From positions 341,540 to 405,539 of the forward strand of contig VKHL01000005.1 in NCBI GenBank assembly GCA_015146655.1: a DNA stretch of 64,000 nucleotides. Direction: 5' to 3'. The notes under the pieces are model-generated. The model ran no database searches, was not told the origin of the DNA, and saw nothing but the letters and a program-made list of their open reading frames with translations. Source of the DNA: Ochromonas danica. Taxonomy: Eukaryota; Sar; Chrysophyceae; Chromulinales; Chromulinaceae. The first letter of the stretch is position 1; each line of letters opens with the position of its first letter. Made by a program: the position numbers and the translations under genes. Positions 30,001-57,689 of the stretch are shown piece by piece.

Positions 30001-30282
30001 GAGCAGGTCAAAGAAGTCTTCGCAACTATCTCTTCGTTCGATTTTAACGGTGGAGATCATTCGTAACGCTTCTCTCTCAGCGGAGATTTGAGCGATGATA
30101 TCCACTTCACTGTCATGCCGCTGTAAAATATCCTCGCGCATTTTATGAACTTCTGAATCTGGAATTTCTTGCGGGTCTTCATCTTTAGCTGACTTCTTGC
30201 TCTTACGCTTACCGCTTTTCACCTCACTGGGTTGGCTATTGCTGTCGACGTGCAGAGCGGTTTTGGAGGAAGAGCAACCCAT
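27079..30282 (-). CDS. PPEF/RdgC-like Ser/Thr protein phosphatase with EF-hands, N-myristoylated
   Basis: A single exon gives 1,067 aa. The start MGCSSSK is a consensus for N-myristoylation plus palmitoylation at Cys3. The PPP catalytic domain (about residues 270-560) has all signature blocks: GDIHGQ (about 303), GDFVDRGP, RGNHED (about 366), VVHGGLFH, DALWSDP, RGAGVSFG, IRSHECVRSGYD and IFSASDYGGSGN. EF-hand-like loops follow: DRNLDGQISQQH (about 718, lacking the final acidic residue), DEDEDGAFSLHD (about 898) and a degenerate one near 958. The order phosphatase then EF-hands matches PPEF/RdgC, Ca2+-stimulated phosphatases of sensory cells; PPEF is about 750 aa, so this protein is longer. 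Long S-rich inserts separate the parts. Expected role: membrane-bound, Ca2+-regulated dephosphorylation. Confidence 0.93.
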   Translation of the reverse strand: MGCSSSKTALHVDSNSQPSEVKSGKRKSKKSAKDEDPQEIPDSEVHKMREDILQRHDSEVDIIAQISAEREALRMISTVKIERRDSCEDFFDLLSTKELAHLSDSSSHYKQQKGWRAQQLRTALANRNKQWMVSLLPSLLFSYFRYGRLTNSMLFSLLQLLNNLEAISSDDLMLLATFLLRIVRAIQKKAEKGDSSRNRPSQGVNAIDLTQFRHLERSIRAMRVVTMAPLSSFRVTEENLYDFDLPPGLVTMHEARLIIDVYRRGGKLIPKAVHKLLRLSFRILKNLPNTSHVTVRPEDKLTVVGDIHGQLADLFHILDAAGLPTSNNKYIFNGDFVDRGPHGVEVMCVLLALFIARPDCVVLNRGNHEDFAICSVYGFQLECYEKYDPLTFGLFVEVFQQIPLFTIVNDAIFVVHGGLFHCESTTLEDLDRIHRVAFSLEEMPEEGEALEGVGRDNEKIFLQQLIRDALWSDPIDLQGKHPSARGAGVSFGPDVVEAFLLRNSLKFVIRSHECVRSGYDEPYTIRSANSAIGGSMLCTIFSASDYGGSGNSAAYMEFSVVPPEELSLDFSSSVRLRKSSTSMTRQYSMTEYAMGPVDNMSEAKLVHGTNLQYTVHYFYATPLHFDSELSQENPHRDTTLDLPSYGRDQEGDVGLSMDSTRSPQVVSNGASRRVTSPSGKMGEEILIGSSISIEELICVRKQLLLESFEKGDRNLDGQISQQHWLRCMTDVINISLSWRRFARYLIKEEMTSASGAVERTTSEIKYVDFLNSFDDDIIFGRYRDDADSIHNMQALSQYIHSIGSEGELDRLEERGSSTGVVGVEDVYIDNGNVGASQSAVEGGGLSLVQPKPEEHEHHLGQQQCSQPYFGHAISSDVVAAIYPNHEKLEEAFRFFDEDEDGAFSLHDLLRGCLQLDLMRASASSTSSSSTDSPSSTKRSYLYSVEEIQRLMAVMDVFECGVIDINVFFEIVRLSLLNTSMQDDEHWTKPLLTREVSHAHELYRLSHYVLPGTPLYGGTPQSGPHIHASQLSAMASVELKKGVEIGVDSELISNTTESVDQVGLSIDI

Positions 30283-31497: not shown

Positions 31498-32166
31498 CTA
31501 TTCTTTGTTAGTCTTGAGAGAGCCCCTCTCGGCAGGCTGGCGCAGGGCAGAAGTGTCCACAGGGTCTGTGAGACGACTCAACCAATTCGTGAAGAAGTTA
31601 CCCTCCTCCTGCTTCTCCTTCTCTCGCTCGATCAGAACGATAGGCTCATCAGGAAAGGCCTTAAGGCAGTATCCATATTCGAAGACTTCCTTCTCTCCAT
31701 TGTCCACGCGTTGTCGATGGAAGGTGCGCAGCTTGGGGAAGAGCTTGAAGGCGCCCTTCAGCAGCTCCTCCTCCACCTCGTAGACTGCGTGAGAGACCTT
31801 CTGATCCCTAGGAATGGTCATCGACCCCACAGGTAGCCACTCGGCATCTGTTCCATTGCGGGGGCGGAAGAAGATGTTGTACTCGGGCACGCCGCGCTTG
31901 GCCTGGCGCTCGTAAGTGAGCGTGCCGATGTCCTTCTCCTCCTTCTTCACCTCCTCCACCTTGCCAAACCCTTTGCCTCTTGTTGGCTTAAGATCTTGGG
32001 GAGGCTCTTCGACTATTTCTTCAGTCATAAAGAGGCGCTGGCTGGATAATTGAGTGGCAAGCGATGAAGTCGTCCGGAGCACTGAGCTATAGGCAGGGCT
32101 CCAGCCCACGCAGACCTTCATAGAGACCATACTGAGGATAGATAGAATGAGCAGGATTGTCACCAT
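31498..32166 (-). CDS. small plastid-type protein with signal peptide (HHL1-like, tentative)
   Basis: A single exon gives 222 aa from the ATG at 32166; an upstream in-frame GTG (32172) is not used. Residues 1-22 are a signal peptide (MVTILLILSILSMVSMKVCV) followed by G-WSPAYSS and an S/T/R-rich, acid-poor stretch to about residue 45, fitting the bipartite presequence of secondary plastids with Trp at the cleavage site. The mature part has RGKGFGKVEEVKKEE, YERQAKRGVPEYNIFFRPRN, EWLPVGSMTIPR, EEELLKGAFKLFPKLR and EYGYCLKAFPDEPI. I associate this with a plant/cyanobacterial group of small photosystem-related proteins (HHL1-like, DUF6523-like), but from memory of pattern only. The name is uncertain; plastid targeting is better supported. 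Confidence 0.72.
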   Translation of the reverse strand: MVTILLILSILSMVSMKVCVGWSPAYSSVLRTTSSLATQLSSQRLFMTEEIVEEPPQDLKPTRGKGFGKVEEVKKEEKDIGTLTYERQAKRGVPEYNIFFRPRNGTDAEWLPVGSMTIPRDQKVSHAVYEVEEELLKGAFKLFPKLRTFHRQRVDNGEKEVFEYGYCLKAFPDEPIVLIEREKEKQEEGNFFTNWLSRLTDPVDTSALRQPAERGSLKTNKE

Positions 32167-32308
32167 TCGCACCGACAGAGGAGGAAAAGATGTCTTTCTT
32201 CAATGACTCACTTCACTTCTCACTGACCCAGCCGCCGCTTTCGAGTTTCGCAGATTCGGGATTTCGACTTTCAGGGAAGTGGTAAAATAAGGGAAATGCA
32301 TTAAGAAG

Positions 32309-37300: not shown

Positions 37301-40300
37301 CTTTGGTATCATCTGGTCCCAATCCACGCAACTCCACTATTTTGAAAGCTTTGTTATCATCAAATGCTTCGAATAAATCCGGCTGATTATCTCGCATAGA
37401 TTCGCTGGGAAAGTCCTCCTCGAGCGGATCTGCAACAAGACCCAAAGTGGATCTCAAGTTACTTAAACTGTTTTGGGCCATTAGCGGTCCAGTGGAGGTC
37501 ATAGATGCCGATAATTTGGACGGGGTTTGTCGTTGGGTGCCAAGGATCCGCACACCAACACAATTGCGCCAAACCTGTAATAGCACTTGACGAGACCCAG
37601 AATCCAACGATTGCATCTCCTCTCTATTATCAGTTCAATTCACAAGCCCATCATAATGAGCGCAAAAGCATAATGAGCACAAATAGGACGGCTTACATTA
37701 TTAATAGCATCGAAGTCTTGGTGATCATAGGAAAGAGGCCGATCATGGCTACCAACAATTCGACAGTGCAGCTAATACGCTCGCGGCCCTTCAGCAACTC
37801 CGTTTCTTCATTGTCATCCTCATGCGAGATAATGGACACAGAAGCTAGGAGTGGTCTCCAACCTTGCATCTCCGTGGGGAGACTGGGGAAGATGATGGAC
37901 AAACCACTCAAAATAGATTCATTCATGGTCAGCTTTAACATTTGTGAGCTAGCTTGGCTTTTCAAGGATGCTGAGTGACCATGGCCGCTATGAGTCATAG
38001 CTTTCATAACGTGATCGACACGAACGAGCATTTCTTGGATAATAGGTTTGAAGCTATAAAAGGGTACACTCATCTCAAAGCTGCTTTGGCGATTACGGAA
38101 AGAGTAAATCCGAAACTTGGTGGAGATCTTGGAGGCGACGTAAACCTTCTTGGCAATTGCGTCCACTAAGGCTGATTTCCCTGTACCTTCTGCACCTATT
38201 AATCAAGAATCCGGTTGACACTCAAAATTAAAACAACAGCTCCCAAGCTACTTACCACATATGACGACCATTCGAGCTGCCGTAGAGGCATCACATTCAA
38301 CTCGTGATAACCCGCTCATGCTCTTGGTTAACAAAGGCATTATACTATGAGTTCGACTGTTCAAACTGCCAGTCATACTGATGAAGCTTCCACGATTCGA
38401 ATGGGAGTGGGCTGTAGGAAACAAGAATGAAAGAATCTCATTCATTTCCTCTTCTCTGCCATATAATTTGAACTTCTCACTGTTCATCTTAAGGAGCTCG
38501 TCTTTCAATAGTTTAGCATCTCGAATACTCTTGCGACGCTTCGAAAAGACTGCGTGAGATGGTGTTTGAGAAGCTTTTGGAGCTAACCGAGTAGAGTACC
38601 TTCCGCTGAGATCAATAGACCTATCTCCCTTGGGAGAAGAGGTGTTGCCCATTTTCAGCGATCCATGAGCAGAGTCGATAGATTGTCGAAAATGAACAGA
38701 AGAACTTCGAGCCAGCATATTGTTGTACCAATCAGTAGAAACACGCAAATTAGAGTACGTCTTCGACGCTATCAGCTTATTCGGGGAAAGGGCTTCAAAT
38801 AGCTGTGAATCGACATCTTCCGTGAGTAGATGAAGAATATCCTCGAAAATGGGCTTGTAGGTCATCACAGGAGTAGCATATCCTTTCGCAGCAACTTCAC
38901 TCAGTGACTCAAATCCATGTGTTCGATCGCGATTCTTGGTTTCTGTGTCACAAATAACTCCAAAAGCTGGAGCTTTGCACATCAATCGAGCGCTCAGGTT
39001 AGTCGACGGCCCCATTACTGCATACTCGTGTCTCGCTGGAGACCCAACCAAGCCACAATATGCCTTTCCTGAAGTGATCCCAATCGAAGCTGTCAGCCCT
39101 AGACCTTGCAATTGAATGACAATATTCTTCGCTGTTTCTAACGCCATTGCAGCGCTATCCGCCTCAACAGAGCCTTTCAAACCAAAGGTACCGATGCAAA
39201 CAGTCCCTTTATCATCAACAATGAACTGTCGCATTTGCCCTCGCGCATCCGCAAAGACTTTGCAAAGAACCTGAATACAGTTCTGCACTCGCTCCAACAT
39301 AAGTTTGTCTGCAACTACTTCATTATCCGTACGATCGAGAAAATCAAATGTTGCGCCTATTGAAGCACCTCGACCCACAGCACGGGCAGCTGCGGAATTG
39401 CCAACCATATTGCTCCGAAGGGACCCATTGCCTCCACTCATGCGAAGAGGATTTGGCCCTCCACCATTAGCTGCACGTACACTGCCAAACTGATTGTGTG
39501 CAAAGAGGAGCAAAGACGGATTTGGTTGCTGATCAGTGCATATATCATCTACTATTAGTTCCATGTCCAATCCATCGATTTTTATGAACAAAACCATCAC
39601 GTTTCGAATTTCCGCTGAGAGTGCAGCTTCTTGCACTAGATATTTGGAAGACGCTTTCTTGATCAAGGCGTTGAATTGTGCCCCATTCAAGGAATGATTG
39701 CGCCCCTTCATACTCAGCCCTTTCGGAGGAGCTTCTGATAAGCTAGGTCTGTGATTGATAGGAGGCGGACTACTGGAATCACCATCTTCATCGTCGGGAT
39801 CATGAGAAGGCCTAATATTTCGAACGTCATTATTTTTTCGTTTCGATATACTTTCCAGGAAGACTCGAAAGGCGGTGGATCGAGGTTTTGCGTCATAATA
39901 GTAGTCATCGCGAGCCACTTCGTGAACATGTTTTACAAAATCTTCAAGAACGCAATACTGTAACCAATCTGTCACGTGTTTCTTGAGGTCGTTACTCAAG
40001 ATATCCAAGACCATACGATCTCTCTCTTTCGGCTTCAGATTGTTCGAGGTAACTTGTAAAGAACTGGGCGAAGATGGAGTGTCCGCATGGTGACTTTGCA
40101 TGCGCGATTTAACTTCAGTTCGATTGATAAAGTTAGTAACCTCCACTTTGAGAGCATTCTGTATTGCGCCATATAATTTGTCGATCTCGGAATTACAATC
40201 ATCATAAATGCGGAAATTATGGGTTTGGGGCGTTGTGTCTGCAGCAGAGGCAGCATTATCATCGATTCTAGCTCTACTTCTCGTTCTCTTCATTCTAACA

Positions 40301-41295
40301 GCTTTATTGCGAGGACTGCGAGTATCTATATTGGAGATTTTGAAGTATCCTTTAGGTGTTTGACAGCAACCACATGGCAGTTCCATCGACGTAGCAGCCA
40401 GCATGGGAACCATTTTCTCACTTAGAGCCATGGAATTGGAATCTTGAAGTATGCTACCATGCACGAGTTGATGAGACTCCGGACAGATCACAACATCGCC
40501 TTTCTTGGCTTCTTCTTCACATTCAGCCACTTTATGTAATGGCTCGCCAATCAGAAAGTACTCCCATCTATCCTCCGCACCAATATCTACACCACCCATG
40601 AGACCAAAGCTAACACCAGAGTGAACGTTTAAATAGGCCACGTTGGGGTTTGCACCTTCGGTTGGACTAACTTTATTGCCAGCCATCCGCGCCCATCGCG
40701 GCAAAAACTTGGAAATAATCCCATTGGAAGATACTTGTTCCACAGCGGGTGAGTCTAGCTGGACTTCATGATTGCCACATGTTGCGTTTATCTCCAGTCC
40801 ACAAGCGATAGCCTTCTCCAAAGCAGCACGAATGGCTGCTTTCCCATAGCCTTCATTAGAGAAGTTCATGCTATAATGGCGCTGCGAAGGAACACTGCGA
40901 ACATCGTCTTCGCCTTCAGATACAATAGCAGCTAATTCCGTCTTCCAGATGACATAGAGAGCATCTCCTGCAAACTTGATGACATCACCATCCCATCGAT
41001 CAACAATATTCAACATGTTGGTGAAGTAATCGTTGATATGGTTTTTGAGATCTTCAACTTTTAACCTTAAAGACAGTGCCGTGAATCCCGAGATATCTAC
41101 AAACAAAAGTGCTCCATGGAATCGCTGGAGGGAAGGACGTGGTGCTTCGGATTGGTTCAGATCGATAGGAGAGACTCCATCCTGAACACCTAGATACTGA
41201 TATGCTAACTGGCAGAGGATTTGATGTCGTAATAATCGTGGAGTATGCCGCCCAAAAGTGACGAACTGTGACTTGAAAGCTTGGGATGAGGGCAT
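34344..41295 (-). CDS. soluble adenylyl cyclase-like protein (ADCY10 type): two cyclase domains plus STAND ATPase
   Basis: Three exons (41295-38256, 38195-37697, 37623-34344; introns 60 and 73 nt) give 2,272 aa. The C1 domain begins ALLFVDISGFTALS (about residue 68, metal Asp) and has DVIKFAGDALYV (second metal Asp). C2 (about 560-820) has FIVDDKGTVCIGTFGLKG (Lys), SIGITSGKAYCGLVG and YAVMGPSTNLSARLM, with the Asn and Arg that stabilise the transition state. A P-loop is formed across the first splice, VVICGAEGTGKSALVDAI (about 1011-1027), and a Walker B-like LLIIEEMQSLDSGSRQ across the second. The order C1-C2-ATPase-helical tail is that of ADCY10, the bicarbonate- and Ca2+-sensitive soluble cyclase (about 1,610 aa in mammals). 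The predicted reaction is ATP to cAMP. The frame runs upstream to a TTG at 41307; I use the ATG at 41295. Confidence 0.92.
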
Positions 41296-41899
41296 AGGAA
41301 AGAACAAAAACTAACACGTCACTTAAATGATTATTCAGATCTGAAGAGACAGATCGAAGACAGATGGAGAGGGGAGGGGGCAAGGGAGACAAGCTATCTA
41401 AAGAGCATGAAGAGCATGAGGGAAGACATAGGGCGAAGACATCAACTAGTCTACTCTAATAGTTCAGCTTCTTCTGCTGTTGTTGTGTTTGCAAGTCCGC
41501 GGCGTGAGGAATGGAGAGGACGAGTAACTGAATGAAAAGCGCTGTCCGGTGCGTTTCACACGCGGAGAACAACCGCCAGGATTTTGCCGTCTTTTACCAG
41601 ATTATACCAGCTTTTACCCTGCTCGTGTTTCAAAAAATTGAAAGACGTTATGATGGTCTCTGGGTTTCTCGTTACTTACCCCACAAGCTCGGATTTTGAT
41701 GCTTAACAATCGATAAGATCTTCGACTAGTGACTTCTTGCAAATGCAATCTGCTCTTTATTGTCTATTATTAAGTAACTAAAATAGGATAAACTCATACG
41801 AAGCAGTATGTCAAGCAGTATTATTAGATCTGGCTTAATTCTCCTTATTTGGGCTATATCTCAATCTACGCAAAATACCAATCTACGCAAAGTATTGAT
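41296..41899. other. intergenic stretch, cyclase promoter and giant-gene 3' end
   Basis: This 604-bp stretch lies between the cyclase ATG and the giant gene's stop codon, both on the minus strand. It contains, on the minus strand, GGGTAAAAGC, CTGGTATAATC and the word GGTAAAAGACGGCAAAATC (41576-41598), shared with the cytochrome b5 reductase promoter. Nothing coding is recognised. Confidence 0.45.
41576..41598 (-). promoter_or_regulatory. GGTAAAAGA-GGCAAAATC promoter word (copy 2)
   Basis: On the minus strand this reads GGTAAAAGACGGCAAAATC then CTGG, 21 of 23 bases identical to 32309-32331. It lies about 281 bp upstream of the cyclase ATG in the sense orientation, next to GGGTAAAAG and GGTATAATC words. 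Confidence 0.45.
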
Positions 41900-44800
41900 T
41901 TATTTCTTGTCTGCGGAGGGCACATGAAGGTTATCCAGGAAGAAACGATGAGAATTGAGCTCGAAGAAAGTCTCCTTTGGTGCATCGTAGCCTGTAATAA
42001 CATAGAACATGCCCAAAGAGTTGATGATCCACATGCTCGCAGGCTTGCCGCCTCCAGCACCTGCATCATCCCAAACCTTGACAGGAGTGAATTTGCTTGG
42101 AGCACACCACACAGCAGGCACACAACGCATGACCTTGACATCAGGAGCATCAGGGGTAGTAGTAATGTACATGCCCAATGCTATGAAATTGTCAGGAGCG
42201 ACAGGTTGCCAAGCAAACAAGGACTTTGCGCCTCTGGCAAAGTGCCACACTTGTCTAAATTTCAGTGGGTAAGGACACATTTGAGCAATCACTGCTTGAA
42301 TCACTTTCTGGCGGCGCATGCGGATAGTAGCATTGTCAGTAAACTCAATCAGCTGATAGCGTTGAGCTTGACGTTGCTTGTTCGGCGGCTGAAAGCCTTT
42401 GCAAGCATACAAACCTAAGCAAACGCGCTCCTATATATACACCAGCATGTTTGAGTTAGCTGTATTCAAAGTAAATACAAATTGTACTCGGATTACCTTG
42501 TTGCTATGCAGCATGGAAGTTTGCAATGAAGGGAGCCAAACAGAGACTTGAGCATGAGATTGAGTGTCTTGACTGTTCCACACCGCGGTGAAGCTGGGAA
42601 TGGCCTTAGTCTGCAAACCATCCAAAGCGTGAGTAACTAGTTCCCCACAGAGAAATAAGCCAGATAACAACTCACCTTGACTTTGAAGCTAAGCAACAGC
42701 TCTTCAGTGATAACCACGCTTTCATCAGGACCCGCAGGCTGATAATTGAAACAGATTGAATTCATCAGTACAAAAAGAGAACAAGCCAGAGCATAAATAA
42801 CATCACCTTGTTGAGTTCAACCAATTCCGGGATAGGTTTGGGTGGCACAGACTCGAAATTGCTTTCTCCAACAGTGCCCACAGTGCGGCTTTCTTGTTCA
42901 TCGTCTGCGCTTTGGAAGACTCTCTTGAAATCATCGTAAGAAATTAATCCCTGGAATAAATACACCCCACGATAAGCTTGAATCTCGACAAATAATAGAC
43001 ACACAAGAGCTGATTACCTCCGTCTGGACCGCCACCTTCCTGACAAGATCATAGATCTGTGGAGGGGTGAAAGTAATGCCCAAGAACTCCATGCCTCCAT
43101 ATATCTCAGAACAAGTTAACAATCCACTATGAGAGGAGTTGAAAGCGCGGAACGCGTCAAAGACAAGCATTCCCTTTTCTGCCAATCCTGCTTGTACACG
43201 GTTAACAATGGCCTTGAATTCCATGAATTCAAACTCTGTGCGTGTGTTGAAAACGGTCATGATGGGTGTAGCACCATCTAGAGCCACTTGGCGGCGTCTG
43301 CGGCACGCGCGGATATCATGCCACCACTTCTCTCGTTGCTCGCAAGGATCAAGTTCCAAGATACGCAAGAGCACAGTGATCGCTGATGTATTGTAATACG
43401 AATCACTATTAACAAAGCGGAAACCGTTGACCATTGAGCTATGCTGAGCGAAATTAGCTCTTTGGAATTTGTAGGTGCTGTCCAGAAGCGTAACATCATA
43501 GTCTCCCATTACCCACATTGCTCCCGAGGTTGGCTGAGTCAAAGTGCGATTGGAAGCCTCCGATGCGATGAGAGGACGACCCGTCCTTCCATGGATCACA
43601 GCGCGCAGGTGCTCAGCTTCCAACAAAGACAACAGAACATAGAACTTTCCATCCTGCTTTTTGAACTGAGAAGACAGATCTCTCACCATCTCGCGGAAAA
43701 CACCCAAAGTAAAGCCGCCTTTACTCTGGATCAAATCAACATAACGACTGTGGAATGCTTCAGGATCCAAGCCACTCATGCCCATGACGTCAACCACCTA
43801 GATACAAAGTCGTAGCCATTTAGTTTATTTCTCACATTATCAATAATAATGGACAAACTTACTCTGCTGATATCCTCCAATGTCAACTTGCCATCTTCAT
43901 CAACATCAAACATGTTGAAGCATCGGAGCAACAACGCCTCTTGAGCAGGAGTAAATTGACCATTATTCACAGCAGAGACGACTCCTTGCATGGCATTAGG
44001 AGGGATAATTTCTTTCATGCTGGGCTCGTATTCAAAAAGGATAATAACATTCTTCAATCTTCGATAAGTGCGATTCATCGTCCAAGCCATGTGGTAGTGA
44101 TTGCGACTGACAAACAAGAACTCTGGGAAGTGCAAAGTTTCGTTACTCTTGGAATAGTTCTGGAAAACGGAGAATTGCGAAAGAGGATAGAAGCCTGTGT
44201 GCGACTTGAGTGGATACTTGGCCAACTCTTCGATTGGCCAAGGTACTGGATCTTCATCATCACGAACAAACTTCTTATTGACGAACTCTTCCTCTTCCAA
44301 CTCATCGACCTTCTCTTCTTCCTTCTCCTTTTCTTTCTCTTGCTCCTGTTCTTGCTCTTGTTCCTGCGCATACAATGAAAAGATGAATAATCTCTCAATG
44401 GGTTTCGAACTTACTGATAACATACCTGCTCTTGCTCCTGCACTTGCTCGCGATTGAAGGCTTGTTCCTCAGCGGTTTCCGATCTTTCAACAACAATCTG
44501 AACGCCCGCAGCTGCTGCAGCTTGAGCTTTCAAGAGGTCACTCTTCATCTCTTCTTCCTGAATGAGCGTTTGAATGTAGATGGCGGTCTTGCGATCCAGC
44601 TCGAGTGCGAGAATATCACTGGAAAATGAATCAACAATTAACAATGTCTTTTTGAACCAGATGATGTTCATACTTACCCGTGACGTTCGATCATTTTCGC
44701 GATTTTCTCGCTGTACTTGATAACCTTGGGGATGGAATTCTCAATCTCAAAATCAATGCGCTCTCTGAATACCTGTAGGGCACGGTTGAGCACAGGAGGG

Positions 44801-47800
44801 CATTTCTCCACACTATCAATGTGGCGGTAATCGCCAACCAAAGCAGCAAAGCATCGTTTGCGCCAGATATTCGATACATTTTGCTCACAAAGAAGGTTGT
44901 ATTGGACACTATCCACACGCATGCTATTGATCACTAGCCAGCAAATGACATCATCGAAAAACTGGGGCACATTCTCGATGTTTCCAGCAACAATATTGCC
45001 AGCTTTGCCTGTGATTCCCATCGAAACTTGCTTGGCAATTAAATCCGCTATTTCGGGAACAATTATCAAGGTGATAGTTTGTCCTTTTCCAATGCCACGC
45101 ATACGGAAAGCGCCCTGGGCATAATCACGGAAGGTCATATCCTTGCCAAGAGTTAAGGCAGCATTGGCATCTACTGCCTGCTTGATATCCATGCCTGTCG
45201 TGTGGACCTATTAAATGCAAGCGATGACATTGAGTCTGAAATACGGTGTCAATTGAAAACTCTATACTCACTTGATCGTAGAAGCTAAACCGTTCCGCAG
45301 GGGTCAGACCACAATCAGCCATCTTGATGACCTTACGTCCCTTGCGTAACATCACCATTTGACGGTCTTCCTCGTCTAAAAAGACAACACCCTTCATTTC
45401 AGGCAAACCTGCTTGCAGCAAGTATTCAGCCACGGCTTTGTTGCTAAGTCCAGTCACTAACGCTCCAGTGTCAATCAGGGAATTGAAAGGAGGACTCGCC
45501 TGAAATAGCATAAGGGAAACAAAGTGATAAGGATAACACGGGTAAAATACCAGAACAAAACGTACCGTGGCGATGATATCCAAAATCTTGAGAGCGTTCC
45601 ATCCAGCAGGAATCTTTAACGTGCGCATTACCTTTGTGGAGGATAAATAATGCACCACTCTTCCGTCCGATCCACGCTCGTAGTGACAGGTTCCCAACTC
45701 GAGCGGCAAAATGTCACTGGGTGTTCCAGAGAAGCCGATTTTCTTTCCGAATAACATATCACCACCAAGTTCTTGCCCACAAGCAGAGAGTTTCAGCCCT
45801 TGATAAGCCAATACCTCAGGGAAAATCAACTCGTTGAGGTAGTACATAACAACATGAGGCAGCTTGTACAGAAGAGGGTAGAGAACTCTAAACTGTTCTT
45901 GATCTCTCAGATCAATCAATTGTAGTGGCCAGATAAGTTCGTCATCAATGTCAAATATCTGTCCAAATAATCCTTTCACCAAAGGCTGCTTTGTACTTTT
46001 GGTGGACACAGTCACCACCTTGGATGACATTTCTTCCTCAACAATAGGACTTCCTCCAGGAGCAGCCTTCTTTTTGTTTTTGGGCTTCTTCTTGCTGCCA
46101 CGAATGGCTTTGCCAGTCAACAGCACCCAGTGCTCAAACTTCTGGTAAGATGGGCGTTCTTTATATGGACCACTTTCATCTTCTAATGTCTCACGCAGAA
46201 ATCGAAGCATGAGGAAGAAGTCTTTCTTTCTCAACCCTTCGTAACGATAAGCCAAGACTGTAAGGCCAATCACGATATCTGGGTGAGCGAATTCAGACGC
46301 TCTACTTGGGACATCTTTAGCAATGAATGGCACAGCGACAAGTTTTCGACTCACTGGCACCTTCACTCCATTTTCTTCAAGAAGACGCAAGTCATCAGGC
46401 TGAAGGAGACCAAAATGGACACGATTGATTTTTTGAAGGATAAATGGTAAATAGGAAGTCAGCCAGTCATGGCCCAAGTTGAGCATCTTGATATGCTCGT
46501 CATGGAGCTCTCTCTTCATCTTGTCCAGAATAATAGGGTTAGACTTGTGACCACGAGCGAGAAATTCTAGAATTTCTGCATCTTGAATTGTTGGAACCTT
46601 TCTAGCTCGCAGCCACAACAACAACCATTTCGCCAAAACATCTCGCATCTTTGCACTGATGATACATCATAAAATCGATTATTAAGACATCAGTGGAAAA
46701 AATACGAGTGGACTTACTGATAAAACTCTTTCGACAGCAAGACAAAATGTGGCGACTGCTGCAGAAGGAACTTGTCGAAGCCTTGTCTAACCACTTCCTT
46801 GAGTTCTCCCAAGATCTCCACTACAAAACACAACGAAACCACCACCATTACGACGAGTGCTTTTATTGAAAAGCATAGGACACTAACCTGCGGTTCTGGA
46901 GTCGGCGATATCAGCAACTATAGGCATATCACAGACGCTGAAGATCGCGTCCAGCAAGTGGCTCGGTAAAGACCAGCGCAAACCGTTTCCTGCACGGGAG
47001 CGAGTAAAGTCCAGTGGCTCTTTGGCCCCAAGAGGCCAGTTCAGCTCGCTCTTTAAAGGATGCAGAATGATATCAACTTCATCCATAATCTCAACACTAT
47101 CTCTGAGTATGTTGAAGATCTTCTCACAAATAGTAAGCTGCCCTCTAGCAGCAAGAATCTCATCTGGCGACATCTCTCCCGCGGACATGCCCACGTGAGA
47201 ACCCAAGCCAAGGAGGCTACGTACTTTTGATAAACTGAAGAAAGACTCAATTGCCTTCTTTTCTCTCTTCTCCAGCGCTAAACTTTGCTGCCTACCCAGA
47301 TTGTGACAGAGTTCTAAGAACTTGAGCATGTATGACTTTACTGATGATGGTGTGGTCACAATAATAGCGCGCGTAAATCTTGCAATCTCCAATTTCGCCA
47401 AGAGTTGTGGGGTGACTTGTTGGTAACGATCGAAAGAGAAGGTGAAGATAGTCTTCTTCACACAAGAACCGAAGCGTTCTCTCAAAACGCCAGCAGAAAA
47501 CTCCAACAGGGCAGGAGGAACAACTTCCACCACAAGAGATTTGGCATTCGCCAACATGAGCGCGAGCAAAGGACCGACTACTGTGGTCTTGCCAGCACCC
47601 ATGATCATCTGCTTGCAAACTGATCTGGACTCTCCCATAGCATTCAATAAGTCTCTCAACAACTCCACTTGAGAGGAGCGCAGCAGCAGACCGTGAGCAA
47701 ACTCGAACAGGAGGAATCTGGGATCAAACTCAAACAATCCTCCACCAAGCTCGTGACAATAAAAGCGCTTCATTGCGATATTGGCAGCCAGCAGCTCACC

Positions 47801-50800
47801 AGTCAGAATCAACTCCTGGGTATATCTCAACCGATCGGTTTCGGTGATGTTGGGAAGTCGCAGCTGTTCGATGACACGCAGGATGTTGCGTGTCTGCTGC
47901 AATGCAAGAATCGTCTGGCTGATACGGCAATAGGTCATCATTACCAAGGCCATGCAAACCAGTATTCCGTTCGCAACTTCAGCCTCTAAGAAAGGATTGC
48001 ATCGTTGCAGATCAGCAGCATAATCCACGGAAGCCACGCTTTGCGCAAGGAAGTCGACATCCTGTTACAAACAATAACCAGAGTTATAAACGGTTCCAAA
48101 GTTCCACAAACAGCATCTATCACTTACCAAATACGTTTCCACACCGACGGCTTGCAGCAAAGAATAACCCTTGGCCAGAAGATTATTGTCAAATAAAGAA
48201 TGGCGACCATTGCAGAAGCCGAGAAGTTCAGGGACGGCTTGTGCAAGGAAAGTGGAATCTTTTGATTTGATTTCTTCCAATGCACCGAGAATCCCTCTGA
48301 ACTCGTTGAAAAGTGAAAGCAACAAGTCATTAGAAAGAGCGCCTCCATTTTCCGGGATGACGCGAAGCATAGCCATTTGAGCATTCTTCTCATCAGTCGC
48401 AAAGTCTTCCATATCTTTCTCCAATCGAGAGACAGACGTACGAGCAATATGCGATTGAGCGGAAGGATGCTTCATAATTCTCAACTTGTCCTTTTGTAGT
48501 AATTGAGCTGCTGACTGGCCAATAGGCGACGGGATGAATTTAACAAAAGGCTTCAATGCATTCGTGGAAAGTGGCGCTTGAGAGAGTTCGGCTATCGTTG
48601 AATTGTCGTAGAAGGCCAAGAAAGATTGTAACTGCGTAGGAATGAGAGACCTCGAGATCACTCGCTTCTCGCAGTTGAAGTCGATTACACGAGGCGTGAA
48701 CCACACTCTGGTTTGAGGTGTATCAGCAACTGATCGCAAGGCCGGTGATGCCACAATAACATTGGGCGGCTTGTAGAAAGGGGGTATGGTAGGATAGATT
48801 CTTGTGTGATTAAGCTCCTTCATATTACTCTTGATGGTCGTTGCAACAGTCTTGATGTGGCTCTGGAAAATATCCAAACCAGACAAGGTTGGAAGCTTTA
48901 GTTTGCGCTTATCTTCAAACTGAGGTAATTTGGCACAGATCTCTTCATGTGTTTCCATGATGTGCAAAATAACTCTTTGCAAACCAGTGATATAAGACTC
49001 GGGAAGAGCTCGCAGGAGAAGTGTGGCCACTGATCTGGGCTTATCTGCGTCAGGGATGATCTGCATATTAAGAGTGTTGGTATAAAGCTCATAGATGACG
49101 AAGAACCCCAAATTCTTCTCCTTAGCAAACAGCTGATGCAAAAACGTAATGCAATCTGGACCTGAGCATGGCTCAAGTTTCGTATACTTTGGAAAGGACA
49201 ATTTCTGAATGAGATTCTTAAAGGTTGGCTTATCCACATCTAGTAAATCCAAGTCGATGCGTTCCTTCATATATGGTTCTGGGGCAATTAAAGGGGCATA
49301 AAGAGGAGAAAAGTTCTTCACTGTTAATCTGGAAAGAGATGTTTGGAAGGCGGCGTCGAATGCAACACGAATGATGCGTTCTCTATTGGTAAAGACGGCA
49401 TCACGTATGGGGCTATCAGAGGCAACTTTGGAGATGATGAATGCCTCTTCGTCAATTTTGAGTCTGCAGTGGGAAGACACTCCAGAATACTGTGAGATGT
49501 AGTTGTAGTAATCATCTTCGAAGTCCGCTTGGAAAGGCATAACATCCACACATCCATAAGTAATAAAGAAGAGTTTCAATCGGCAAGCGAAAAAGTCTGC
49601 AGGAACAATATCCTTTAAAGTCCACACCAACTCATATACTTGCTTTTCTTGTGGAGTTAATGGACGATCGCAGACACAGCTTTCGATCAAACGATAAGCT
49701 TCTTTATAGTTCTGAGTAATCATGAACAAGACCAAAAGGTAGAACGTCGAAGCAACGGACTTCGACTGCAGATGAGAGCCAGATGAGTGAAGATGATAAA
49801 CAAAGTAAGTGTTTTCTCCGCAATTCTTCACCCAATCTTCGTCATTCAATGCAAACATGAGCTTGAAAGAGTGAACTTCATTCTTCACTTTAATTTGGCG
49901 GGGCTTAGCAGTAGCTGTCATCAACAACAAACATTCACCATCATGGTTACGCAACAGCACCGAGTTAGTCAAGTCGTTTAATAGTCTTCTGATCATATAG
50001 ACGCCAGAAATATCCGCAATGAAGTATCCCTTATGTTCCAGACAATAGTAGCGGCATTGGCTGTTGGGCATTTCTTTCCTTTCAAATGTCAGTCTTAATC
50101 GAGGAAGTTCAATTATATCCACGTTACCCGTTGACTGCTTGTTTACGACTTTACTCCAAAGCAGTACATGGGATATGGGTTCCAAGCGCAAGACAAGCTT
50201 CAGCAAAGAATGGACCGTATGGCGAAGTCGACTTCCAACAGTCTCTTTAAAAGTTCGAGTGGCGTCGACCAATGCATTGGTGACACCATAATGTTCTCGA
50301 TCATAATTGGCCAATACAGCCATAGGATTCAGCAGCTGCAAGACATCAACTGAACTCTCAATGCTCTCACCACTTTCGCTCTCCACCAAGAGATGACGAT
50401 GGACAGTTCCAAATCCATCGCTGAATCCAAACCCTGTTGAATCCAGTCTACCCCCTTTGCGAATGCTGATTCGGATGATTGAAGGAGGGAAATAATAGTC
50501 TCCTCCTTTCAGCATATAGCCAGCAATTGTATCATCAAAATTCTGCCAGAACTCATATGAATCAAGAAGGGTAGAAGGAACAGTTCCATACATCAATCTC
50601 TTTGGAAGAAACATCTGCGCGTTATCAACCTCCTCCTCAATGTACTTCAGAATGACCAAGGAAGGAGCAGGAGCGTATGTCACAGTAGGGTTTCCACAGC
50701 ATTCGTTCATAGAATTCGCAATGTTGAGAGCATGGAATTCCAAAGTGTGCATCGAAAGAGCGCAGGACGAGGAGAAAATTTGTGTGCGATACCATCTTCT

Positions 50801-53800
50801 TCCATATTCAATAACATTGTAGACATGGAAAACACGCGGATACTTGTAAACAACGATTTCTTTCAATGTCCAGCTGGTAATAGCACCATTCTCTCCCGTC
50901 GTCGAAGCAATTCCGAAGAGACTTACAATGTTTTCTGATGCCGCATCGCTTGGACCGATGAAAAACTCAAGACTCTTGAAGATTCTCTCACGCCAAGGCT
51001 CAAATATCTCCTTAACCCACGGTGGTGCGGAATCGGCATAACCACGCGCGGTGCTAATCTTCGGCTGTCGTTCATCCGCATCCCATAACTGGACATCATA
51101 TCCGCGACCGACAAGACGCAGCCATTTTCTACGTACAGTATGCTTGACCTCGGCACATTGGATGATGTCATCCTTGGTGACATATTGGAAAACTTGTACG
51201 AAGTCCGCATCATCTTGAATAGCTGGCTCGAGAGGTTGCGTAGTGTGACGCTTGATAGTAAACTCTCCTAGTTGTACATTAATTTCAGTGTTAACCATTA
51301 AGGTTGTCGTCTCTCGCATCCAAGCCTCGAAGTTCACCTTCGCCTCCGCACTCAGCTTCGAGCTCACAGAATTGGCGTCAAACTCGTTCGATGGAACAAA
51401 CTTTCCTTTGAAGTTCATACCCGAATGCTCAATCGAGATCCATGTTCTGTTCAGGCGTGGTTGACTACCATCTTCGATAGGAAGACTCCCCTTCTTCTTC
51501 TCTCCCTCTTCAATCATCTGAACAATACCATCCAACACCATGTTGCAATCCGAAGGATTTGATAGCAGCCAATCCAATATTTTGTTGCGATTAAGTTGAA
51601 ACATATCAAACAATTCAACCTGTGCAATTCGCAGATCATTCTTTTGGGGCTCATCCTCTTTCTTTCTTGTCGATTTTGAGTTTTCCAAATCCAAATCGAG
51701 GTCGTATTTATAGTTGTTGAAAAGGAACACCTGGCAGGACAGCCAAGCAAAGACAACCATGGGATTCAGCTCATTGGCTTGGATATTGCGGAACAGATAA
51801 GCCAAATGGGCATGAAGCATGCAAGCGATGGAGATATAACCCTCATCCTTAGCTTTCTTGATCCATCTGGTTAAGATCTTCAGCACTTGATCGTTTAAGA
51901 TAGCTCGAAGCGAGCGCTGGCATTCCAGTGCTGCACTCATCATCTCATCTGTACAATCTAAGCCTCTCACCTCGGCCTCGAAGTAAGCACCGCTAAGTTT
52001 CTGCATGGACTTCTCCGCTGCCAACCGCTGCTTCTTCGCTTCACGATTCTTTCCCAAGAAGAATATAAAGCTTTCCACCTTCACAACCAATCGAATGACA
52101 TAAAGAATACTCTCGCTCAATTCACTGTACTTTCCGGTGTCCATATCAATAACCTTTTCAAGTATCGACTGGATGGAATTTAGAACAAGTTTTGGCGACA
52201 TGATGAGCTCATTGAAAAGAAGACCAACAGGCGTGCAAAGATGCTCGCGTCCAAGACTCGGAATTTGGTCAGGAATGGTTTTCTCAGCACTATCCTGCCA
52301 CTGGGCAGGCTCGAAAAGGGCGGCATCCAAGACTTCTTGTATCTTCGGATTTCGTAGGGCCTTCAATCGATTCTCATTGGAGAAGAAGTTCAACAGCAAA
52401 GGAATGCGCAGATAAGGAGCAGTCAAGTATTGAAGCATCAACTCGCAGTCCTTCGCTCCTAACGTGCCGTCGAAGTCTGGCAGGGTCTTGACATGGAGAA
52501 TGTCGTCTTCTGTTTCCACTCTCTCACCAAGCAAAATGCTGGGGTTAGCTTGCGAAGGAGTCGCACGAGGAGTACGGCCCTTCAAGCCCAGGTAGCGAAG
52601 GATTCTTGTCATGAACCCACGCTTGGGCTGAATGGTCTGAGATGCGGGCACAGCTTCCTCAGCAGGGGTAGGAGGCTGAATGCAGTCCAGAGTCTTGTTG
52701 AAGCCCTTTACAACATAAGATTCGCCTTCCCATGACCAGGAAAGAGCAGCTTCTTCAGGAGACCATGGTTTCAACTCTGGGAGCTGTTCACAAGTTGGTA
52801 CCATCACTAGCTTGAACATGAAGACTAAGTCGCGGAAGAAGCCTATTTCAGGGTAATGGTCGAGCAACAACATATTCGTTCCAGTGATGAACTGCTTCTC
52901 GAATCCACGAACGAACCCCATCTGCAAACATAGCTGATCAACATATCGTTTATCAGCTGATGAGCAATCAGAGCTTTCATGGAATTTGAACATCATATTG
53001 GACTTTGGAATGACGCTTTCCAGCTGATGGAAGTAATCCAACACCTGAGTTCTCGCTGCGACACTTTCGGGCTTGACAAACTTCAGATATTCACTCTCTT
53101 CTTTGAATCCGCCTAAACTGAACCCAAAAGGCTTCACGGGTCCCTTGGCGAGTCCTGAATAATGTAGTGATGACTGAGCTGGAATATCGCAAGCTGTCTT
53201 TCTCATTGCTGCATCACAAATTGTGGCCATAGAGGCAAAGACTAACATACGGGTAGCATCTCCAGATCTAGTCATTTTCACTGACAAAGAGGCGGTAGCA
53301 AAGTGTCTACAGAGCATATTCAACAGTCTCAAAGTATCAGCTTGTGTTTCGTAGCGCATTGGCTGTGCATGCCAAAAGCAACGAGTGTCTCGATCTGGAT
53401 GCGTAATAGGAAGGGGCAATGGAATCACGCGGATGAAGAGATGCTCAATCAAGCACAGTCTTAGTGTGTAAGAGTTGCGAATCAAAGCACGCTGATTGGA
53501 TAGCAGGACGCACAAGTTGAGACAGTGTCTCATAGCTTTGGTCATCTCCAGAAAGTGAGAGACCTTGTCTGGAACTAAAGTCATCTCAACAGGACGGAGA
53601 ATAGGAGGAGGTTGAGAAGCTCCTGCTAACTTCTCTACCGAGAAATCTCTCCTAAAGCGTCCGAAGTAATCCAATTCAAGAGCATCAGGAAAATGCTCTT
53701 CCGTTCCCATCTCATAGCAAGGCATGACGACTGCGTTCTCATCGCTGCTTCGAATTCTAGCATCTGCAGTATTAGCCATCGCTAGAGCACTTGACACCAC

Positions 53801-56369
53801 TTGTAAGTCTGTGTCATGGTTCTCAATGGCAAAATAGCCCATGCTGGTGCTAAAATCTCGTAAAGCTAACTGAAGGATCTTCTTTTCTCCGGTGGAGATC
53901 ACAGGTTGAACAAACATATCATTAACTGCAATCTTGAACATATTCAATTTGACAATAATGGAGAAATATGACGCTTCCTTAGCTGACAGGTTCTCATTTT
54001 TGGCGATGACACGCCCACATTCTAAAATAGCATGTATCATACTAGCATCGCCATTGCTCGGGACGGGACAGAAGTCATCCTGATGAGATAGATCTTGCAG
54101 CTCTGCTTGGGCAGCAGATAGGGCATGCATATCGGTAAGAAAAGGAATCACTCGCTCATAAAAGAACTTCGCATCCGTCTTCACATTACACAAAGCAGAC
54201 CGATAGAACAGGAACCTAATAATATGAAAATCAATCAACATGAGCAAATCGGAAACTAAACAGAACTCGGTCGCAACTTACCAGAAACCGCTATTTTGGA
54301 TTCTATCGTCGGAGATATTGTGGAAGGTAACTGATAATTTACGACGAATCTCGCCAGTAGTAGGATCAACACTTGGAGGATGGTAATCCAGACCACTATT
54401 GGCAATGTTGCGACTATTCACAAGGGTTAAACTATAATTATTATTAGTCTCTTCCTTGTCTTTGGTAATGAGACAAAGGACGCAATGCTCGAAGTCTTGC
54501 TCATCCACCCAAAAAGCAGGAAGTAAAAGGTATTCCCTCACTCTCAGAGTGCGCACACGAACCATGAAGGAGACAAGAAAGGTATAAAAGCGCACAGAAT
54601 CGTCAGATTTAGGAGGAAGAGTCCGACAAACATCTTGAGCATCTTTCAGAGCGCCCATATATTTCTGAAAAACAATTCGTTGAGGCTCAGATCTCAACTC
54701 ATTGGATGAATCTACCATCTTGGAAGCTGAAATAACGCAATCCAAAGCAGAACGCACCCTTTCCATGGCTGGTTGTTTGTGAATGACTGCAGGATCAGAA
54801 AATGTGTAGGGTTCAGTGAAGAGATCAAGAAAAGGTTGCATTGTCCAGCTAGCCACAAGTTCCATGGAATTTGCCGACTTATTGAACACGTATCTACTTC
54901 CAGTCAAACCTGCTCTCCTGCATAATTGAGGAAGCTCTTCAGTTGGTTCCGCCACTGATCTTGGCATGCTGGGTGTGTTCGACTTGATCGAGAGATCATA
55001 TGATGTGTCGATAACATCATTTTGGTGTTGGGAGCTACCCGAGGCAACCCCACCAGATACTGATACCATAGTGGATGATGAGACGGCGATGCTCTTGGCG
55101 GTAGTAGAACTATTGGAACTGATATTCGCAGAAGCCACAGGAGCCGCAGCGGATGTGGAATCTTGAATCACTTCCACATAATTTGAAGGGATATAGCCCG
55201 CCTTGGCAGGACCAGAAATCGTTGATGCGTACCACCACTCTTGATTGGTGGTGTCTTTCACAAGTAAAGTGTCGCCAACAGCAATGGTCAGCTCTGTTGG
55301 ACCACCCGCCACTCTGGCATACTTGACGCGGACTAGAGTAGCTTTCGTTTTTGGATCGCTCGCAGTACTCTTCGGAGCATCAACAACTTTCGTGCTGGCA
55401 GCAGGCTCAGTCGCAACTCTTACAGATTGCGGTCTGCTAGGCTTCTCAGGTACCACTGCATGGTGCTCGGCTTTAGCTACAGTCGCAGCGAAGGGAGGCA
55501 AAGAATTGGCTGCAGCCTTCGTCTCTACGGTAGCTACGTTAGGCTGTGTTATGCCCGCTGGCGACAATGCGGAGGTTGACGAAGGGGTGGCCAAGGGAAG
55601 ATTCGCAAAAGGATCATCCAGCAGAGAGGTTGAAGTGCGAGTCGTTGGTATTGCATCCAAACTTAGTAGATCGGAAGATCCAGCTGGCCCTGTCAAACCA
55701 CTCGTTGTGCTCGTGCCAGAAACAAGGCCAACAGCCGGGGTTGCAAACGAAGATGTGGTCGAGAGAGAGATGGGCCTATTACCAGCGGCAGTGGCACCAA
55801 GCATTGAAGGCTGAAATGCTGCACTGATCGAGCTTGCAACAGGCGCTGTTGACGTGGCTGGAGCAGCAACAAGGCCCTGAAACGGATCCGCTGGGAGGAA
55901 TTCCACGTAATCAGTGGGGAAGGCTCCTTTCGCGCCTTTGGACCAGCCACCCGCAGGGCCTTTTAAAACCACATCAAAGATTTCTCCTCTTTTTAGAGGC
56001 ATTTCGTTTTTGCCGGTGCCAGCGAAGTCAAAAAGAGCCTTTGCTTTCACCACCGCAGAGCTTTGCTGTACAGGCGCTGCAGGCGGAGGAATGACTGCAG
56101 CAGGCTTGGCTTCCACTGGAAGAAGCTCGATGTAATCACTTGGAAAATAGCCAAGTTTGCCTAAAAATTAGTGAGTGAGAGGGTTGTCGCTCTAATGGGA
56201 GAGTAGGCCCACCTGTTGCGGTCTCCTTGCCCTTGGACCAGCTGCCTTTTCCTCCATAATTCACAACGGTGATGACCTCACCCGCTTTTAGACTAATCTG
56301 ATTGGGAGCTAAGGACGCGTAATCAAACAAGACCTTAGCCTTTTGCCCAACTTCATCACTTTTCAACAT
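41900..56369 (-). CDS. giant SH3-DUF3638/DUF3645 protein with helicase-like ATPase motifs, EF-hand and VPS13-type C-terminal domain
   Basis: Fifteen exons join in phase: 56369-56213, 56160-54282, 54215-48128, 48061-46888, 46820-46718, 46655-45566, 45499-45272, 45207-44678, 44618-44426, 44363-43863, 43797-43018, 42950-42807, 42738-42676, 42610-42497, 42430-41900; 4,524 aa. Three SH3 domains lie at about 10-67 (AKVLFDY...LGYFPSDYIELLP), 90-142 (AKALFDF...GAFPTDYVEFLP) and 327-383 (GYIPSNYVEVI), with DPF motifs between. The DUF3638/3645 region follows (NSGLDYHPPS near 650; FYDQVHTTGMDIKQ near 3570-3583). Within it are a P-loop GAGKTTVVGP (2863), IMDEVD (3033-3038), TTGMDIK and QGAFRMRGIGKGQ (3604), which look like helicase motifs I, II, V and VI. 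A QE-rich coiled coil (3800-3830), an EF-hand DVDEDGKLTLED (3967) and a VPS13/DUF946-like end (FAWQPVAPDNFIALGMY) complete it. The function is unknown; no separate internal start is needed. Confidence 0.88.
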
Positions 56370-56594
56370 GATGTTGAGTTGAGATTGTTTCCACTACAGC
56401 TCTGCACAGCAACTGGCCCTGGGAACCCAGATCTCCAAACAGACAAGATCTACAACTCTAGCCAAGATTCTCTAACGGACCGCGCAGGCCCAACGGACTT
56501 CTAGTGCGACGTCATCCCCTTCTCTTTTGGCGATGGCCGTATGGGTGCTGGGATGAATATGAACAGACGAAAGCAACCTATCTAGCTATTGAAA
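56370..56594. promoter_or_regulatory. divergent promoter region, giant SH3-DUF3638 gene / fibrillin
   Basis: This 225-bp gap between two ATGs contains the word CCCAGATCTCCAAA followed by CAGACAAGATC (56426-56450), also present with few changes at 15012-15037 and partly at 24265-24280. Confidence 0.45.
56426..56450 (+). promoter_or_regulatory. shared promoter word, copy 2 (CCCAGATCTCCAAA type)
   Basis: CCCAGATCTCCAAA is followed directly by CAGACAAGATC. It matches the minus strand of 15012-15037 over both halves, and CCCAGATC-N-CCAAA of 24265-24277. It lies 57 bp upstream of the giant gene's ATG. Confidence 0.4.
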
Positions 56595-57689
56595 ATGAGA
56601 GCTATTAATACCTTGTTTTGGGTGGGGTTGTTTATTGTAATTGATTTCGTGGGGGCCTGGCACTTCTTAGCCAAGCCCAAGCTGATTTTCCTAACTTCTG
56701 CTATGCTTGCTCAGCATTGGAAAGGAAAAGGTCAAGCTCAACCTTCAACCTCCCTGTCTAATTCTAAACTGGGAGGAAAGAAAATGAATCGGTCATTTTC
56801 TTTGAAGTATTTCTCCAATGGCTCTATGGAGAAAGAGAGTGGTGGGTTCCCTACTGCTGTCTCCATCTCTCCTGCCCCTGCCCCTGCCCCTGCCCCTTCC
56901 ACAACCAGATATGAGATGAAGTTATTAAGTTCTCCCAGGACAGGGTATTTCGCTTCTTCGTCGAACGAAGTGGCGGAAGGAGAAGAGAAGGCAAAGAGGA
57001 GAGAGCTGAAAAGCAAGTTGTTCTCCTTGAGCGCCACTTGTGACCGCGGCTTCTCCGCCAAACCTGTCGACCGCCAACAGATCGAGACCTTGGTCGATCA
57101 ACTCAAAGCTCTGAGCCCAGAGAAGAACCCTACTAGAAACTTGTACCCTTTCACTCAAAGTCCTTTAGAGAAAGCTCCTCTGGAGGGGGCATGGCGTATG
57201 ATTTACACTTCCGCCGCAGACATCGTGAAACTCGCGGCAAATCCTCTAGCACAGGTCGAAGCAGTCCATCAACTCCTCTATCGAGATGGTTCCTCTGTCA
57301 ATGCGATCAATTTAACACCTCGTTTAGAGCGCATGTTACCCGACAGGCTGGTTGGTCAAGGCACAGTCTTCCGCTTGAAAGTCTTTAGCAAAGCAATCGC
57401 GAGAAATGAATCCAGAATTGGCCTTTCTTTTCGCAAAGTTGAGCTAAAGCCTCTTTCCCTGTTAAGTCGAAATGTGGCCGATGTTCTTCCTCCTTTGCGA
57501 GCGTCCATACCACAAACCGCTCTCTTTGGAGCAGATCGCGAAGAGCTGGGCTTGTTGTATGAGAAGAACACGCCCGCGTATTTTGACGTCCTCTACCTCG
57601 ACGACGACTGCCTTATTATTCAGCAAAATAACCCTGGGGGCCTCTTTATTGGCATTCGCACCAGCGAGCCTTTAGATTCCTTCCTGTGA
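56595..57689 (+). CDS. PAP/fibrillin-family plastid lipid-associated protein
   Basis: A single exon gives 364 aa from the ATG at 56595; a TTG two codons upstream is not used. Residues 1-22 form a signal peptide (MRAINTLFWVGLFIVIDFVG) followed by AWHFLAKPK, an aromatic residue near the cleavage site as in bipartite plastid presequences of heterokont algae. A linker with a PAPAPAPAP run (56875-56900) leads to the PAP_fibrillin domain at about 135-364: ELKSKLFSLSATCDRGFSA, IETLVDQLKALSPEKNPTRN, APLEGAWRMIYTSAADIV, VFRLKVFSKA and the C-terminal FDVLYLDDDCLIIQQNNPGG, the usual YLDxxLRIxRG position. Fibrillins sit on thylakoids and plastoglobules and are linked to lipid and plastoquinone metabolism. 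This is the strongest evidence for a plastid in this organism. Confidence 0.9.
   Translation: MRAINTLFWVGLFIVIDFVGAWHFLAKPKLIFLTSAMLAQHWKGKGQAQPSTSLSNSKLGGKKMNRSFSLKYFSNGSMEKESGGFPTAVSISPAPAPAPAPSTTRYEMKLLSSPRTGYFASSSNEVAEGEEKAKRRELKSKLFSLSATCDRGFSAKPVDRQQIETLVDQLKALSPEKNPTRNLYPFTQSPLEKAPLEGAWRMIYTSAADIVKLAANPLAQVEAVHQLLYRDGSSVNAINLTPRLERMLPDRLVGQGTVFRLKVFSKAIARNESRIGLSFRKVELKPLSLLSRNVADVLPPLRASIPQTALFGADREELGLLYEKNTPAYFDVLYLDDDCLIIQQNNPGGLFIGIRTSEPLDSFL

Follow-up and report, generated by a model that had tools for sequence, protein, structure and literature searches.

What does a single protein of more than four thousand residues do in a chrysophyte alga? The question is raised by a locus at positions 56369-41900 on the minus strand of a 64,000-nucleotide (nt) stretch of the Ochromonas danica genome (assembly GCA_015146655.1, contig VKHL01000005.1, positions 341,540 to 405,539), hereafter the window. 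The predicted product carries the DUF3638 and DUF3645 domains of a family of widespread, very large proteins whose function is unknown. In excerpts from PMC12615304 the mechanism of these proteins is called undefined and no function is given for them, nor is one given in excerpts from PMC5423893 and PMC6237848. On balance, we consider the best explanation to be that the gene encodes a giant superfamily-2 (SF2) ATPase scaffold, which would be targeted by SH3 domains at its N-terminus. The gene model, the domains and their order, the ATPase motifs and a predicted fold for a close relative are the computed parts of this proposal.

Gene model and order of the domains

The locus is most likely one nuclear gene encoding a protein of 4,524 amino acids (aa). 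The start codon (ATG) lies at 56369, the stop codon ends at 41900, and the 15 exons of the model join in a single open frame. All 14 introns are of the GT-AG type (52, 59, 62, 62, 64, 65, 65, 66, 66, 66, 66, 67, 67 and 68 nt), with a mean GC content of 36% vs 46% in coding sequence. Splice modeling re-derived the 15 exons and the 52-68 nt introns of a preliminary description made from the letters of the sequence. The final exon set was put together manually from the output of two dynamic-programming runs. Two candidate introns of one run (51970-51917 and 42250-42181) were dropped; that run overran the stop. The intron at 45565-45500 is stop-free in all frames, and L023, a relative discussed below, aligns gaplessly once this intron is removed. 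The single protein proposed earlier is also borne out as a gene model, with 9 of the 14 junctions bridged by a Pfam domain or by the alignment of a relative. Junction 1/2 lies under SH3_1, 10/11 and 11/12 under EF-hands (10/11 is spanned by five residues), and 14/15 under Vps62. Junctions 3/4, 4/5, 5/6, 6/7 and 7/8 are spanned by alignments of L023 and L026, 3/4 only by a piece of 21% identity.

The joined protein was scanned against Pfam with curated cut-offs, listing families up to E 1. SH3, DUF3638, DUF3645, EF-hand and Vps62 profiles, which the preliminary description had proposed to search for, all scored over cut-off. A very large stretch, from about aa 680 to 2708, has no Pfam match. 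The features, all on the minus strand, are as follows, with the basis of each in brackets.

41900..56369 (-): whole gene, 15 exons, 4,524 aa (gene model)
56114..56345 (-): SH3-1, aa 9-68, spanning intron 1 (Pfam)
55886..56053 (-): SH3-2, aa 89-144 (Pfam)
55607..55888 (-): linker motifs DPF (aa 144-146), LLSLD (217-221) and DPF (235-237) (motif scan)
55163..55345 (-): SH3-3, aa 325-385 (Pfam)
54212..54565 (-): aa 585-656, drawn to aa 680; weak similarity to a module at the N-terminus of bacterial DUF3638 giants (profile)
46991..47728 (-): DUF3638, aa 2820-3065, putative first RecA-like domain with motif I at 2859-2872 and motif II at 3034-3043 (Pfam and motifs)
45752..46990 (-): predicted helical insertion with DUF3645, aa 3236-3266 (Pfam and L023 core model)
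45076..45736 (-): motifs III (3441-3448), V (3576-3583) and VI (3604-3617), second half of the core (conserved residues)
44310..44440 (-): Glu/Gln-rich run, aa 3810-3832 (composition)
43783..43931 (-): EF-hand, aa 3959-3986 (Pfam)
42915..43161 (-): EF-hand pair, aa 4194-4253 (Pfam)
41978..42610 (-): about aa 4311-4499, Vps62 match and most likely a beta-tripod (Pfam, PDB sequence match)

The ATPase core and its relatives

DUF3638 (PF12340; 86.4 bits, cut-off 31) and DUF3645 (PF12359; 53.9 bits, cut-off 25) both exceed their thresholds, which places the protein in this family, as first described. SF2 motifs that we take to be I, II, III, V and VI are present in order in the core. Among the 18 of 24 relatives with a segment of 700 aa or more, positions at which at least 80% agree with the window include Q and MG.GK (I), DE (II), G..GT (III), G.D..Q (V) and Q..R.R (VI). 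An AlphaFold2 model of the L023 core, which is 43% identical to the window, was built from an alignment of this core to 21 bacterial loci and to four pieces of window exons (predicted local distance difference test, pLDDT, 73.4; predicted template modeling score, pTM, 0.71). A Foldseek search with this model at E<=0.001 gave 16 PDB chains, all of them from RIG-I-like receptors, DinG or SecA. Altogether, the motifs, the predicted fold of the relative and the profile support the ATPase core proposed earlier and assign it to SF2. It probably consists of the DUF3638 RecA-like domain, a helical insertion bearing DUF3645 and a second RecA-like domain, and would hydrolyze ATP.

By profile comparison, the nearest SF2 branch appears to be that of ResIII-type helicases (hhalign E 2.8e-7, probability 93%), ahead of DinG (0.013), DEAD-box proteins (0.017) and SecA (0.053, over 18 columns). 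The reference frames came from six genomes (6 SecA, one of them partial, 4 DinG, 10 DEAD-box and 10 ResIII-type). Moreover, two of the bacterial frames with DUF3638 score above the ResIII cut-off, and further Pfam scans gave ResIII (0.0079) and DEAD (0.021) matches below cut-off. SecA as nearest kin, an idea suggested by the DEVD motif, was rejected on the shortness and E-value of its alignment, and SecA_DEAD is not listed for window exon 4 up to E 10. Counter to this rejection, SecA holds the highest query TM-score among the 16 Foldseek chains (0.31). As a separate observation, a 2,961-aa open frame at G005:C33:74159-74827, outside the DUF3638 matches of that genome, has a SecA_DEAD match of 61 bits and may represent a second giant SF2-type protein.

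These matches also bear on the main rival explanation, that the protein is a giant helicase of RIG-I/ResIII type acting on nucleic acids, for example an RNA sensor or a ribonucleoprotein remodeler, with SH3 domains that merely localize it. The top fold and profile matches are indeed nucleic-acid helicases. However, identity to them is very low, Pfam finds no nucleic-acid-binding domain in the joined protein, and the DPF and LLSLD motifs together with the SH3 domains point to cytoplasmic adaptors. We regard this explanation as possible but unlikely.

Relatives of the core were sought by translating motif I, Q..MG.GK[ST].V[IV].P, back into a degenerate DNA pattern, which has one match in the window (0.00 expected) and 24 in a prokaryote genome collection. 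All 24 loci, some of which come from the same genome, encode frames that align to the window core (blastp; weakest best match 3e-7, with E-values for a 24-sequence database). Their labels are Chlamydiota (11), Legionellales or Legionellaceae/Legionella (7), Gammaproteobacteria (3), and Proteobacteria, Verrucomicrobia and Anaerolineaceae (1 each). The DUF3638 cut-off is passed by 7/7 bacterial loci scanned and by L023. The profile also scores above threshold in 62 of the 151 genomes of one Chlamydiota phylum sample (77 at E<=0.001), in 8/14 genomes from the order of one metagenome-assembled genome (MAG) titled Legionellales, and in none of 14 control genomes. No relatives were found in the viral contigs and plasmids searched. 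Sub-cut-off DUF3638 matches from small genomes within the Chlamydiota phylum sample were set aside after three had been inspected; the one frame fetched looks like the repair helicase Mfd by a motif that we presume diagnostic.

The closest relative, L023, is 43% identical over aa 2820-3703 of the window protein and is its sister at 100/100 in a 19-row tree. L023 and L026 belong to an Anaerolineaceae MAG, in which a 9,947-bp contig consists of a single 3,315-aa open frame; L023 has a GC content of 64.5% over its 8,000 bases. They are probably mis-binned eukaryotic DNA. The contig of L026 ends in a Glu/Gln-rich run resembling aa 3810-3832 of the window protein. Between core and Glu/Gln end (about aa 2250-3315), L026 also shows a thioredoxin-like PF13905 match below cut-off (21.7 vs 27 bits) and long helical-looking sequence, which may resemble a dynein stalk.

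The SH3 arm and the C-terminal tail

Three SH3 domains had been read at the N-terminus, and SH3_1 exceeds its cut-off there in three stretches (77.5 bits, cut-off 22.9). SH3-1 and SH3-2 retain the aromatic and proline positions that we assume to be usual for the domain; SH3-3 is more divergent. The DPF motifs described alongside this triplet are likewise enriched, as both DPF motifs found in the protein fall within the 185-aa SH3 linker and 0/5000 shuffles reach two. One clathrin-box-like LLSLD accompanies them (shuffle fraction 0.032). The motif scan found no NPF, FxDxF or WxxF in this linker, and no BAR, EH or ENTH family is listed for the joined protein.

Exon 2 contains SH3-2 and SH3-3 and, in addition, a weak match to a module found at the N-terminus of bacterial DUF3638 giants. 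When this bacterial module was searched against the exon 2 segment, one reversed and 50 shuffled copies (52 targets), the window segment came top (hmmsearch; best domain 5.4 bits, sequence E 0.013), and a one-to-one hhalign comparison gave E 2e-4 with 47% probability. Since exon 2 holds both the SH3 domains and this family module, the match lends weak support to SH3 domains and core belonging together. It bears on the suggestion that the model is a fusion of at least two genes, for instance one for a DUF3638 protein preceded by one for an SH3 adaptor (exons 1-2). Junction 2/3 is unbridged, and the unspliced exon 2 frame ends at 54278 inside the donor, so that a read-through message would yield a product of some 680 aa. 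Against such a fusion stand the gap of just 66 nt between exons 2 and 3 (intron 2) with its GTAAGT donor, the weak family module in exon 2 and the uniform intron lengths, and we consider it improbable.

The bacterial module itself, common to the N-termini of L004, L005, L016, L017 and L021, has GHAM, an Asn/Gly motif and Q.SGTC, and could be an unrecognized enzyme, conceivably a cysteine peptidase. Its AlphaFold2 model is middling (pLDDT 68.8, pTM 0.52) and has no PDB match at E<=0.001 with Foldseek; its profile gave three PDB matches, the best at E 0.044. The GHAM...Q.SGTC pattern, with His, Asn and Cys conserved in the five bacterial frames, would suit a protein of the ubiquitin system, and fungal DUF3638 members presumably carry the label ubiquitinyl hydrolase. 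Nevertheless, Pfam finds no peptidase family in the joined protein, the module model lacks PDB matches as noted, and in the part of window exon 2 that aligns the Cys does not appear. A ubiquitin role is, in our view, as improbable as a gene fusion.

At the other end of the protein, the C-terminal coiled coil of the preliminary description was found as a region, but is better described as a Glu/Gln-rich run. The EF-hand reported in the tail was recovered over cut-off by EF-hand_7 (39.5 bits, cut-off 30) and EF-hand_6 (26.7, cut-off 25), with EF-hand_1 and EF-hand_5 below theirs. A canonical Ca2+ loop has acidic ligands and Glu at position 12. The loop at 3967-3978 is near-canonical with Asp at this position, the one at 4201-4212 has Glu at position 12 and Asn/Ser ligands, and the one at 4237-4248 is degenerate. 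The tail may respond to calcium.

The end of the protein had been called VPS13-type, a reading that did not hold. Vps62 exceeds its cut-off of 22.1 bits (24.3 in the joined protein, 31 for aa 4290-4524 alone). VPS13 proteins are recognized by their bridge domains, and apart from Vps62 no VPS13 or chorein family, bridge domain included, is listed for the joined protein up to E 1. Exon 15 matches PDB 6fbm (6fbm_A, residues 385-476; E 5.2e-4); dHax3 ranks higher (E 7.3e-5), without an individually passing stretch, and with a longer tail piece 6fbm ranks first (E 7.2e-4). We take 6fbm to be GNIP1Aa and residues 385-476 to lie within its tripod; the title of the GNIP1Aa paper names MACPF and beta-tripod families. 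According to excerpts from PMC7613979, plant VPS13M1/2 contain 'Vps62' domains that are predicted to fold as beta-tripods, a fold originally reported from bacterial lysins, and the name Vps62 goes back to an alignment error. Taken with the 6fbm match, this means that 'VPS13-type' should read beta-tripod, which most likely is the last domain, and that Vps62 offers no argument for lipid transfer. VPS13 membership was rejected on these grounds, and a VPS13-type role in membrane contact or lipid transfer, favored by the Vps62 score, is extremely unlikely.

Proposed mechanism and known systems

In the SH3-targeted ATPase scaffold that we favor, the SH3 arm and linker would dock the protein onto proline-rich partners and endocytic adaptors, with the EF-hands tuning the tail and the beta-tripod binding a partner. 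ATP-driven opening and closing of the core could then remodel a bound substrate or translocate along it. We infer these partners, an endomembrane location, a substrate and a role in membrane trafficking from the domains; endocytic membranes are a tentative best guess for the site of action. A bolder version is doubtful: an SF2 motor wired into the SH3/clathrin-adaptor network of the alga would form an ATP-driven, calcium-tuned endocytic machine, and the DUF3638 giants of Chlamydiota and Legionellales, groups that include bacteria living in protists, would be cousins of this motor acting on the same host membrane process.

Several points weigh against the scaffold. Its support consists of predictions from sequence and models. 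Junctions 2/3, 8/9, 9/10, 12/13 and 13/14 are based on splice signals, frame and intron length, and 2/3 is the one that ties the SH3 arm to the core. The exon 2 module match falls under the HMMER inclusion threshold, phmmer picked up no bacterial frame with aa 560-705 as query, and LLSLD-type matches number four over the whole protein. The 16 SF2 chains match at TM-scores of 0.21-0.31 (by query length) and root-mean-square deviations of 18.7-25, so the SF2 likeness concerns domains and not the whole chain. A PDB sequence search with the window core gave no convincing helicase, and a PDB profile search gave seven matches that are marginal or to non-helicases, the top one lying in low-complexity sequence. 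The 19-row tree carries long-branch warnings. Downstream of the L023/L026 core, Pfam lists neither EF-hand nor Vps62, in a contig that ends inside the frame.

Among the neighboring genes, a PAP_fibrillin frame (56589-57689, plus strand) is divergent to the giant gene, with its start near 56589, and an HHL1-like frame lies at 31498-32172 (minus); we take both to be plastid-type families, which would suit a photosynthetic eukaryote such as an alga. A frame with an adenylate/guanylate cyclase domain (38248-41307, minus) follows the giant gene in the same orientation. The window also holds a calcineurin-like phosphoesterase (27079-30282, minus) with an EF-hand_1 match just under cut-off, and a 3,273-aa open frame (1086-10907, minus) with IP3/ryanodine-receptor and ion-channel profiles. 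Scans of the window for tRNA and Rfam families gave no matches.

All modules of the giant protein are already known; what appears new is their combination with SH3 and beta-tripod-like ends. No description of an SH3, DUF3638/DUF3645, EF-hand and Vps62 architecture was found in the literature searched, annotated eukaryotic proteomes being outside this search; a paper on calpains that shares several of these terms lacks DUF3645. The SF2 placement and the two ends would provide a testable handle on the functionally unknown DUF3638/DUF3645 proteins. In turn, the spread of DUF3638 in Chlamydiota and Legionellales, against none of the control genomes, prompts the question whether protists and their bacteria have exchanged genes.

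Among known systems, the protein resembles DUF3638/DUF3645 giants in both profiles, in size and in its ATPase motifs, but SH3, EF-hand and Vps62 are not listed up to E 1 in seven bacterial frames, several of them cut by the locus end. With RIG-I-like receptors and ResIII-type helicases, its best fold and profile matches, it would share RecA-like domains and a large insertion; it differs in an identity of about 10%, low TM-scores and an insertion of about 370 aa holding DUF3645. The accessory domains of plant VPS13M1/2 and PDB 6fbm are matched by its last residues (Vps62 over aa 4290-4524, and exon 15), unlike the VPS13 bridge and MACPF families, which are not listed for it. Finally, it has tandem SH3 domains with DPF and LLSLD linker motifs in common with what we take to be the class of endocytic SH3 adaptors, and is set apart from them by the predicted fusion of this SH3 arm to a giant ATPase.

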